From Candidatus Caenarcanales bacterium (lineage in GTDB: Bacteria > Cyanobacteriota > Vampirovibrionia > 2-02-FULL-35-15): DNA of 55,354 nucleotides. A program made the position numbers and the translations under genes. The DNA lies in the NCBI GenBank assembly GCA_020050435.1, contig JAGVKQ010000010.1, positions 1 to 55,354 on the forward strand. The letters run 5' to 3'. The notes beneath the pieces were generated by a model. It saw only the letters and a program-made list of their open reading frames with translations. It did not search any database and had not been told where the DNA came from. Shown here one piece after another: positions 10,679 through 34,802 of this stretch (the stretch's first letter is position 1; each line of letters begins with the position of its first letter).

Positions 10679-12307
10679 TCAATTTGTAATATCAATATGT
10701 GCTGAATGTGATGGTTTTGTTGTGGATTCGCTAAGAGGTTTTTGTTTAGACTTAAACCATAAACCATATTCAAGACTATCTGTAATTGCTGACCAGGTAG
10801 CTTCTATAATATTTCCACTGACACCGATAGTATCCCAAATGTTTTCTCCATCAGTGGTTTCTACGTGAACTCTTGTTTTTGCTGCTGAACCATCGTGACT
10901 GTCTACAATTCTTACTTTGAAATCTAAAAGTTTAAATTCTTTTAAAATTGGATAATAGTGATTCAATGCTTTTCTAAGAGCATTGTCCAAAGCATTTCCT
11001 GGACCTACTCCAAGGCTAGCTGTATGAATAACTTCACCTTTAACTTTAATTCTTACTGTAGCCTCTGCAAGCTGTTTAGAGCTGGTAGTTACTCTATAAT
11101 CAATCAATTCGAAAAACTTAGGCTTTTGATTTAAAAGCTCGAGAAGTAAAAGTGTGAAGCTGGCATCTGCTCCTTCAAATTGGTAACCCTTGTTCTCTAA
11201 TTCTTTAATCTTCTTTAAAAGATCTTTTGCTGTTTCTTTTGGATCTAAGCCTAAATCTAAATCATATTTTTTTGCAACTGAAAGAACATTTGAAATGCCT
11301 GACTGCTCACTTACGATAATTCTGTTTGTATTTCCAATGCTTTCTGGACTTATATGCTCATATGTTCTGCTGTCTTTTTGAACTGCACTAGCATGTAATC
11401 CACCTTTATGTGTAAAAGCAGAAAAGCCTACAAAAGCCTGGTGATCATTAGGGTTTAAGTTTAAGATACTGGATATTTGTCTGGAAATAGGAGTTAATGT
11501 TTTTATATTTTCACCAGGCAAAACATTTTTTTTATATTTAAGTTCTAGATTAGCAATGATAGAAACAAGATTTGCATTTCCACAACGCTCACCTATACCA
11601 TTGATAGTGCCTTGTATTTGCCTTGCTCCAGCTTCGTAGGCTATTAGAGAGTTTGCTACTGCTAATTCACAGTCATTATGACAGTGAACACCAATTATTG
11701 TTTTATTTCCAATTGTTTCTTTAGCTTTACTTACTGCTATTTTTACTTCTTCAGGGAGTGTTCCACCATTTGTGTCACAGAGAACTACGCCATCAGCTCC
11801 AGCATCACTGGCAGTTTTAATTACACTTAAAGCATATTCAGGGTTTGATTTAAAACTATCAAAAAAATGTTCTGAATCAAAGAAAACTTTTTTACCTTGT
11901 GATTTTAAAAACTCAATACTGTCTTTAATCATGTTTAGGTTTTCTTCTTTAGAAACACCGAGAGCAATTTCTACGTGCATGTCCCAAGTTTTGCCTACAA
12001 TTGTTATGTATTCTGTTTTAGCTTGAAGCAGAGCACTTAAGATAACATCATTTTGTGGCTTTGCATTTGCTCTTCTTGTACTTCCAAAAGCCACTAACTT
12101 TGCATTTTTTAAATTTAATTCATTTGCTTTTTTGAAAAACTCTACATCTTTTGGATTTGCACCAGGCCATCCACCTTCTATGAAATCTACTCCTAATTCA
12201 TCTAGTAATTTTGTAATTTTTATCTTGTCATCAGCAGAGAGTGAAATGCCTTCCATTTGGGCACCATCTCTTAATGTTGTATCGTATATTTGTATATCTT
12301 TTGACAT
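10679..12307 (-). CDS. cimA: (R)-citramalate synthase
   Basis: A 542-residue enzyme of the LeuA/citramalate synthase family. It would condense acetyl-CoA with pyruvate to give citramalate, the threonine-independent route to 2-oxobutanoate for isoleucine. The DTTLRDGAQMEGI motif (9-21) opens the TIM barrel; GVHCHNDCELAVAN carries the metal-binding His pair. A C-terminal allosteric LeuA_dimer-type domain begins around residue 400, with GVGPGNALDNALRKAL and HDGSAAKTRV. The length and GGWPGANPKD (41-50) fit the CimA subclass rather than LeuA or homocitrate synthase. The YVTN gene follows 3 bp downstream. Confidence 0.92.
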   Translation of the reverse strand: MSKDIQIYDTTLRDGAQMEGISLSADDKIKITKLLDELGVDFIEGGWPGANPKDVEFFKKANELNLKNAKLVAFGSTRRANAKPQNDVILSALLQAKTEYITIVGKTWDMHVEIALGVSKEENLNMIKDSIEFLKSQGKKVFFDSEHFFDSFKSNPEYALSVIKTASDAGADGVVLCDTNGGTLPEEVKIAVSKAKETIGNKTIIGVHCHNDCELAVANSLIAYEAGARQIQGTINGIGERCGNANLVSIIANLELKYKKNVLPGENIKTLTPISRQISSILNLNPNDHQAFVGFSAFTHKGGLHASAVQKDSRTYEHISPESIGNTNRIIVSEQSGISNVLSVAKKYDLDLGLDPKETAKDLLKKIKELENKGYQFEGADASFTLLLLELLNQKPKFFELIDYRVTTSSKQLAEATVRIKVKGEVIHTASLGVGPGNALDNALRKALNHYYPILKEFKLLDFKVRIVDSHDGSAAKTRVHVETTDGENIWDTIGVSGNIIEATWSAITDSLEYGLWFKSKQKPLSESTTKPSHSAHIDITN

Positions 12308-12445
12308 TGATTCTAGAGTTAATATATTAACCCGTTATTACTGCTTTGTGATCACTTTTAGAAAGTCTTAAACATTGATAGAATTAATCCTTGTGAATTA
12401 GATTTTTCTAATTTCCTGAAGTCTGATTATCTAGTGTTCTAATAT

Positions 12446-12525
12446 GTCCGAGTGGCGGAATTGGTATACGCGCACGTTTAAGGGGCGTGTGAGCAATCAT
12501 AAGGGTTCAAGTCCCTTCTCGGACA
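12446..12525 (+). tRNA. tRNA-Leu, anticodon AAG by folding
   Basis: A complete class II tRNA. The acceptor stem is GTCCGAG/CTCGGAC (12446-12452 with 12518-12524), discriminator A at 12525, no encoded CCA. D stem GCG/CGC with a GG-containing loop. T arm AAGGG-TTCAAGT-CCCTT. The short variable arm is TGA-GCAA-TCA. The only 5-bp anticodon stem that pairs is CACGT/GCGTG (12473-12477 with 12485-12489), leaving loop TTAAGGG and anticodon AAG (12480-12482). G37 fits a CUN-reading tRNA-Leu. Reading the loop one base earlier gives TAA, but then the stem does not pair. A34 would need TadA deamination to inosine to read CUC and CUA. Confidence 0.9.
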
Positions 12526-12574
12526 GATTAGAGAACTAGTAAAAGCTAATGGTGTAAATCCGTAGAATAGTTTT

Positions 12575-13942
12575 TTATAAACTATCACGAAACTCTTCTA
12601 GTTTATGAAGCGATTTTGAGGAATCAGTTCCTACTATAAATACTGCAAAGTTTTCTTTTGTGAAAATTTCATTTGCTAGCCTTTTTAAATCTTCTGAAGT
12701 TATTGAATATGATCTAATGTATCTCTCAGTCATGTCTCCCGAGAAATTAGGATCTAGAATATGTGTTCTAGAGTTATACCAGTTTATTGTATTTAAATCT
12801 TCTGACCTGGCTAAATGAGACTTTTTATAAATCCTCTGAACTTCTTTTAAGTCTTTTTCGGGGATACCATTTTTTTTCATTTCATGAATAATTTCACTCA
12901 TTAGTTCTAAAGCCCTATTTAACTTATCATTTGATAATGAGGAGGAAATTATAGTTGCTCCACCACCCCAAAGATCATAATTATATGAACCAATACCATA
13001 TACGAGCCCATTTTGGTGTCTAATTCTTTTTTCAAGCTCTCTACTTAAATAAGAGCATAAAAAATGGATCTTGTAACAGTCATTGTTTAAAGCTAAAGGA
13101 ACAGATTTGAATCCCATTGTGAAATGAACTAAATCTGTTCTTTGCTCTAGACAGCCAATGGTAGGAGTAAATGATAATTCTGGAACAGGATGTGGATTTA
13201 AATTTCTAGTTTGGAATAAAGAAGAAAACTCTTCTATCTGATGAATGTTTGTTCCTAAATCTGTAAAGTTTCCCGAAAGAGTAAAAATTGTATTATTAGG
13301 AGGAAAATATAATGAGTGAAAATCTTCTACATCTGTAATTGCTATTTGACGAATTGAATCTTTATTTCCTATTCCATATTTAGAGTAGGGATGATCTTTC
13401 CATATCCCATTGAGTAATTCCCAAAAAGCTATATCTGCTGGTTCTAGAGAATCATAATGTTTGTCATGCTCATTTTCTATTACTGATCTTTCTAATTCCA
13501 TTGCTTCAACTCTTACATCTCTTTCATATAATAAATGCAATTGTAGAGATAAAGCTGGATTAAATGCTTCACGAGTAGTTTCTATATAGAACTCACTAGT
13601 ATCACGACTAGTCTTGGCATTTCTATTAGCGCCTAAACTTTTACATGCACTTACTGCCTCTTCTTTGGTTATACCTTTTGCTCCAGCAGAAATCATATGT
13701 TCTGTATAGTGAGCTAAACCTGGCAAACTCCCATCATTTCTTGAACCACCTCTAACATATGCAGTAAATCTAACGTTTGCTGCTTTTGTATTTTCAGCAA
13801 TAACTAAAGCCCCAGATGATAATCTATGGATTTGAGGATAACCAAAAGGAAATAACTCATCTCTGGTAGGTACTATTACTGGAGTCGTGGCATACATTGC
13901 AATGCCACTTTTCACAGCTTCAATACCAGTTACTAAAATCAT
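12575..13942 (-). CDS. M16-family zinc metallopeptidase (insulinase-like)
   Basis: A 455-residue single-unit M16 peptidase. The inverted zinc motif HxxEH is at His78-Tyr-Thr-Glu81-His82 (LAHYTEHM), and the distal zinc ligand is Glu158 in ENEHDKH, resembling insulysin's SEHEKN. The conserved R/Y pair near the C-terminal half-domain seems retained (HQNGLVYGIGSYNYD). It would degrade peptides; there is no signal peptide, so it is likely cytoplasmic. Many bacterial M16 proteins work as pairs with an inactive partner, but no second M16 gene is adjacent. The start has no Shine-Dalgarno; TATAAT lies 10 nt upstream. Confidence 0.9.
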   Translation of the reverse strand: MILVTGIEAVKSGIAMYATTPVIVPTRDELFPFGYPQIHRLSSGALVIAENTKAANVRFTAYVRGGSRNDGSLPGLAHYTEHMISAGAKGITKEEAVSACKSLGANRNAKTSRDTSEFYIETTREAFNPALSLQLHLLYERDVRVEAMELERSVIENEHDKHYDSLEPADIAFWELLNGIWKDHPYSKYGIGNKDSIRQIAITDVEDFHSLYFPPNNTIFTLSGNFTDLGTNIHQIEEFSSLFQTRNLNPHPVPELSFTPTIGCLEQRTDLVHFTMGFKSVPLALNNDCYKIHFLCSYLSRELEKRIRHQNGLVYGIGSYNYDLWGGGATIISSSLSNDKLNRALELMSEIIHEMKKNGIPEKDLKEVQRIYKKSHLARSEDLNTINWYNSRTHILDPNFSGDMTERYIRSYSITSEDLKRLANEIFTKENFAVFIVGTDSSKSLHKLEEFRDSL

Positions 13943-34675: not shown

Positions 34676-34680
34676 GAAGC

Positions 34681-34772
34681 TGCTGTTAGGTATGGCAAAT
34701 GCTTTACGAACCTGGTCAGGTAGGAAACTAAGCAGCCATAAGTTAAGTTTTTGGGTATACCTAATGGCACTA
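34681..34772 (+). ncRNA. ffs: Signal recognition particle RNA, small bacterial type
   Basis: The conserved Ffh-binding apex reads CCTGGTCAGG-TAG-GAAA-CTA-AGCAGCC (about 34710-34737), equivalent to the E. coli helix 8 with its asymmetric loop. The tetraloop is GAAA instead of GGAA. The ends pair: TTAGGTAT (34686-34693) with ATACCTAA (34757-34764), plus further G-C and wobble pairs out to 34681/34769. Size is about 90 nt, with no Alu domain. TATAAT at 34670-34675 sets the 5' end. The 3' end is approximate. Confidence 0.9.
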
Positions 34773-34802
34773 GAAACTAGAGGACCAGAGAATTAAATAC
34801 TA

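Follow-up and report, generated by a model that had tools for sequence, protein, structure and literature searches.

A tRNA-Leu with A34, probably in the place of tRNA-Leu(GAG), in Candidatus Melainabacteria

In the majority of bacteria A34 occurs in tRNA-Arg(ACG) alone, as the original prediction for this DNA rightly held, with TadA as the editor, and tRNA-Leu with A34 is an established exception (PMC13249217, PMC11472039), already known from Lactobacillales, Oenococcus, Prochlorococcus and Mycoplasma. Almost all bacterial tRNA-Leu(AAG) genes have been placed in Bacilli, with Mycoplasma and Prochlorococcus noted in a brief survey (PMC13249217). In Lactobacillales (Streptococcus, Lactobacillaceae, Oenococcus) A34 replaces G34 in the CUY-reading tRNA-Leu (PMC13249217, PMC11472039), and CUU and CUC gain in frequency at the expense of UUA (PMC13249217). 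Editing of tRNA-Leu(AAG) by TadA is described in Streptococcus (PMC11472039, PMC13249217), where it is complete in vivo; E. coli TadA does not accept this tRNA (PMC11472039), and AAG substrates are lost to the E. coli enzyme when position 32, 37 or 38 is changed (PMC11066159). Of the four A34 tRNAs in Oenococcus oeni only two undergo editing; left unmodified, an A34 tRNA reads U well but C weakly (PMC11066159). In vitro, CUC is read faster than CUU by G34 tRNA-Leu, and the streptococcal I34 tRNA-Leu shows little difference in speed between the two codons (PMC13249217). The locus described here represents a modest extension of the A34 tRNA-Leu known from lactic-acid bacteria and Prochlorococcus.

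The tRNA-Leu(AAG) gene and the tRNA set of its genome

The window, the whole stretch of 55,354 nt that was analysed, contains a single tRNA, called by ARAGORN as tRNA-Leu(aag) at 12445-12526 on the plus strand, and Infernal scores 12446-12525 at 48.6 bits on RF00005 (cut-off 29 bits). The features of the locus are as follows.

10679..12307, minus strand: cimA, citramalate synthase, divergent neighbour (TIGR00977, 694.5 bits, cut-off 450)
12446..12525, plus strand: tRNA-Leu(AAG) gene, type II, A73, CCA not encoded (ARAGORN; Infernal RF00005; kept in nine family members)
12478..12484, plus strand: anticodon loop UUAAGGG, positions 32-38 (sequence reading)
12480..12482, plus strand: anticodon AAG; 12480 is A34, G in most relatives (ARAGORN, sequence reading, relatives)
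12490..12499, plus strand: variable arm UGA-GCAA-UCA, with a 3-bp stem (UGA/UCA) and a GCAA loop (sequence reading, relatives)
12575..13942, minus strand: ORF, M16-type peptidase-like, convergent neighbour (weak sub-cut-off matches to PqqF/YfmH/pitrilysin models)

The ends and the AAG anticodon given by the original prediction agree exactly with ARAGORN, Infernal and our reading by hand, and the gene is confirmed as real and correctly read. Read by hand, all arms close: the acceptor stem has 7 bp (12446-12452/12518-12524), the D stem 3 bp and the T stem 5 bp (T arm 12501-12517), and A73 is 12525. The anticodon stem (12473-12477/12485-12489, CACGU/GCGUG), followed in the loop by A34 at 12480 and then A35, G36 and G37, had been described as fully paired; the stem and the placing of AAG at 34-36 hold, but one of the five pairs is a G.U pair (U31.G39) beside four Watson-Crick pairs. 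With its cloverleaf, long variable arm, A73 and a score above the tRNA model cut-off, the gene belongs to the bacterial type II tRNA-Leu. The minimum-energy fold of the tRNA alone shows no cloverleaf; such folds are common for tRNAs. The Rfam gathering scan of the window does not contain the 12446-12525 tRNA, although the direct RF00005 search lists it, and we read this absence as a filter effect. Promoter-like matches upstream of the tRNA (3 vs 1.2 expected) are near the chance number. The tRNA is in all likelihood functional, and presumably expressed. Elsewhere in the window lies a bacterial small SRP RNA (4.5S; 34679-34774, plus strand, RF00169, 52.6 bits).

The host genome (G000), from a member of Candidatus Melainabacteria (class Vampirovibrionia in GTDB), is a 2.49-Mb draft in 30 contigs that is 96.6% complete; it contains 40 tRNAs by RF00005 search. 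ARAGORN on these loci gives leucine isoacceptors TAA, CAA, TAG, CAG and AAG and arginine isoacceptors ACG, CCG, TCT and CCT; A34 occurs in only two of the 40, Arg(ACG) and Leu(AAG). A GAG tRNA-Leu was not found in the 96.6%-complete genome by ARAGORN on the tRNA loci, by BLAST or by a GAG pattern search, and BLAST with the tRNA-Leu(AAG) matched only its own locus and the TAG isoacceptor. CUU and CUC are therefore without a detected G34 reader, and within this draft AAG is the sole CUU/CUC-type tRNA-Leu detected, standing where GAG would be expected. The tRNA calls and the isoacceptor set thus support the earlier claim of a CUN-reading tRNA-Leu with A34 in place of GAG: five leucine tRNAs are present, the gene was not assigned to TAA, and a second, GAG-bearing copy was not found.

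Our preferred explanation, to which we give a probability of roughly three in four, is that a functional tRNA-Leu(AAG) replaced tRNA-Leu(GAG) through a change of position 34 in situ beside cimA, that its A34 is most likely edited by TadA, and that it reads CUU and CUC. The tRNA would then be the dedicated CUU and CUC reader of the genome; its A34 would most likely be deaminated to inosine by the single TadA, which would serve tRNA-Arg(ACG) as well; and the I34 tRNA-Leu could read CUU, CUC and, alongside tRNA-Leu(UAG), CUA.

Position 34 in the family, the class and beyond

The orthologous tRNA was matched in nine other genomes of the family at 84-94% identity, compensatory stem changes included, which places it far beyond chance, and tblastn synteny puts cimA next to it in all nine. 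The anticodon is AAG in G000, G003, G009 and G010 and GAG in G001, G002, G004, G005, G007 and G008. Within one genus, the tRNAs of G009 (AAG) and G005 (GAG) are identical except at position 34, so that nature offers near-isogenic pairs with one tRNA base of difference. Compensatory changes include an anticodon-stem pair, C-G to U-A, and a variable-arm pair that is A-U in G000 and G-C in relatives. Such a substitution pattern would be expected from selection that keeps the tRNA working but leaves position 34 free to vary. In a further genome of this family (f1), G006, which is 96% complete, GAG and AAG tRNA-Leu were both not found and only TAG was, which reflects either a draft gap or real loss.

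Among 289 genomes of the class (Candidatus Melainabacteria), the AAG pattern was found in 11 and the GAG pattern in 202, and the two together in none of the 289. Since pattern searches miss some tRNAs, such as those of two further AAG species (G017 and G027) found by ARAGORN, all pattern counts are lower bounds. A34 tRNA-Leu occurs in at least 13 species of the class from five families (f1, f2, f5, f6 and f8), and parsimony on a 39-genome ribosomal-protein tree requires at least nine changes between A and G at position 34; parsimony gives no direction for these changes, and GAG is by far the commoner state, the change from G34 to A34 being the presumed direction. Because the orthologues share one locus, A34 recurs, a single base differs within a genus and the two patterns never occur together, the G34/A34 variation at the cimA-linked locus is a repeated switch in place and not a pseudogene or an assembly error. 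A damaged or misassembled copy in a draft that had missed an intact GAG tRNA-Leu would draw on the 30 contigs and 96.6% completeness of the genome, but all stems and A73 are intact, the variable-arm pair is compensated, several independently assembled genomes of the family share this A34 gene, which other families have too, and a GAG match was not found in G000, so that we consider this reading extremely improbable.

The switch is most simply accounted for by point mutation in place. Alternatively, species could have exchanged the short tRNA allele and so produced the patchy A34, given that G003 and G010, which belong to different genera, have identical AAG tRNAs while their respective congeners, G008 and G005, have identical GAG tRNAs. 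Against this, every one of the nine family members with a matched tRNA has the gene beside cimA, the bodies of the A34 tRNAs are specific to their respective families, and strong conservation means that two tRNAs may be identical through common descent combined with parallel change. Exchange therefore seems unlikely to us; it concerns history only and is compatible with the preferred explanation of a tRNA-Leu(AAG) in the place of GAG.

As in Lactobacillales, AAG and GAG are mutually exclusive, the genomes are AT-rich and TadA would also serve tRNA-Arg(ACG); the present species, however, belong to another phylum, and their switch is patchy even within a genus rather than family-wide. A34 tRNA-Leu is more widely distributed and more labile than the papers cited here report.

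In a collection of genomes from 84,980 species, 99 stretches fit an AAG pattern specific for the stem, and for 96 of these the locus has an ARAGORN AAG call. By title, the taxa comprise about 60 Clostridia, 16 Caldisericota, 3 Cryosericota, 4 Bacilli, 4 Melainabacteria and a few others. The known range, mainly Bacilli with Prochlorococcus and Mycoplasma, is hereby widened to Candidatus Melainabacteria, Caldisericota, Cryosericota and Clostridia. The frequent tRNA-Leu(AAG) of Caldisericota, Cryosericota and uncultured Clostridia (L115-L213) is hardly mentioned in the papers cited here. The sample of the phylum includes 27 genomes from family f38 in which the AAG pattern occurs with the loop CUAAGGA, four of them checked with ARAGORN; the data suggest that f38 represents picocyanobacteria and that its gene is probably the Prochlorococcus tRNA-Leu(AAG) (mentioned in PMC13249217). 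The gene of G000 resembles it in its anticodon stem and comes from the same phylum in the genome collection, but from a separate class, and the f38 loop is closer to that of tRNA-Arg(ACG). The same tRNA-Leu(AAG) is shared by a collection entry titled 'Synechococcales cyanobacterium' (L186) and by G015, which belongs to family f6 and to the genus of the Caenarcaniphilales genome G039; the title of L186 is probably wrong.

Leucine codon usage and editing by TadA

Codon usage was compared between A34 species and G34 species of the same family on 5-40 kb per genome. The shares of leucine codons are 28.4% CTT, 3.6% CTC and 39.6% TTA in the former, and 26.8%, 3.2% and 40.1% in the latter. In G000, CTT makes up 27.9-29.2% of leucine codons, against 28.9% and 31.3% in the GAG relatives G002 and G007. 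The original prediction had taken a common CTT as fitting A34; CTT is indeed common, but this carries no weight, being about equally common in GAG relatives, and the comparison of codon use that it proposed does not discriminate A34 from G34 species. Ribosomal-protein genes likewise show no consistent leucine codon shift between the two. A recoding of the Lactobacillales type, with CUU and CUC raised and UUA lowered relative to GAG relatives, was seen neither in bulk nor in ribosomal-protein genes; the A34 species of Melainabacteria differ from Lactobacillales in this respect. The natural pairs separate the tRNA change from codon recoding.

One TadA is encoded in G000 (L046:9257-9715, minus strand), with HAE and PCAMC motifs; its closest solved chains are TadA (E 1.8e-33), and so is its best NCBIfam match, at 135.2 bits under a cut-off of 150. 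tRNA-Arg(ACG) and TadA are both present (L027; C11:27260-27715), and tadA occurs in all 13 A34 genomes. A TadA match is absent from G011, G021 and G130, all with GAG, but these are three drafts, which prove little. As with tRNA-Arg(ACG) of most bacteria, the putative pairing is of an A34 tRNA with TadA as editor, although the tRNA body, anticodon and loop context are different. Compared with CUACGAA, the loop of tRNA-Arg(ACG), the loop UUAAGGG has other bases at positions 32, 35, 37 and 38, whereas the corresponding loops of S. pyogenes differ only at 35 and 37 (PMC11472039).

Of the two states that the original prediction allowed, editing by TadA and unmodified use, editing of A34 to I34 is likely, given that one tadA is present in G000. 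The departure of the loop from CUACGAA, the sub-cut-off score of TadA and the lack of a leucine codon shift count against the preferred explanation. A functional tRNA with unmodified A34 would read strictly CUU, and CUC would be read weakly by A34 or through extended wobble by tRNA-Leu(UAG). Such a state would agree with the four loop differences from the TadA substrate, the rarity of CTC (3.6%), the good reading of U and weak reading of C by unmodified A34 tRNAs, and the unedited A34 tRNAs of O. oeni (PMC11066159). Poor reading should deplete CTC, however, and A34 species use CTC as often as their G34 relatives do, in bulk and in ribosomal-protein genes; TadA accompanies A34 in 13 of 13 genomes, and the streptococcal tRNA-Leu(AAG) is fully edited (PMC11472039). 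As unmodified A34 reads C weakly, the undepleted CTC mildly favours editing, and we consider an unmodified A34 improbable.

A candidate for a second TadA acting on tRNA-Leu, L046:4989-5480, was rejected; it scores 86.3 against the TadA cut-off of 150, adjoins an adenosine-deaminase-like ORF and, 4 kb from tadA, looks like a GuaD-type deaminase. The GuaD-like and adenosine-deaminase-like ORFs lie directly side by side on the same strand (L046:3975-5480, contig C11), are easily mistaken for a second tadA, and are perhaps a purine salvage pair. In family f6, the TadA of the A34 genomes G015 and G039 (L244, L247) has lost GA-x-GS, a stretch that most relatives conserve after the PCxxC motif.

TadA residue 71

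When 152 TadA columns were scanned for residues that are enriched alongside A34, over 13 A34 and 29 G34 genomes, Asp at residue 71 ranked first (8 of 13 A34 vs 1 of 29 G34 genomes), and 2 of 200 label shuffles were as good over all columns. In tree-independent pairs, Asp71 goes with A34 in 5.75 of 8 on average and against it in none, and the next best of 603 column-residue tests reached 3.99 pairs; this test is post hoc, with a sign test alone of about 0.03. A total-variation scan of the TadA columns was not significant (0.69, with 95% of shuffles at 0.73). Five genomes have A34 without Asp71 (G009, G017, G027, G035 and G122), and Asp is fixed in all 30 f38 genomes, both those with a match to the AAG pattern and those without one, so that it is not a specific A34 marker. 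Asp71 may be a permissive residue, or chance. That in-place toggling of G34 and A34 without recoding goes with Asp71, which would let TadA accept the tRNA-Leu loop, is a tentative idea to which we give a little more room than to an unmodified A34 or allele exchange while still doubting it; if true, a single residue would largely determine which substrates TadA accepts. With the natural pairs, a small number of naturally occurring enzymes would suffice to test how TadA takes up a second tRNA, a question that PMC11472039 raises. In G000 numbering, residue 71 lies just before a W-R-L motif and aligns with N of E. coli TadA (N72 by count), with S in the S. aureus-type chain 2b3j and with T in the best PDB match.
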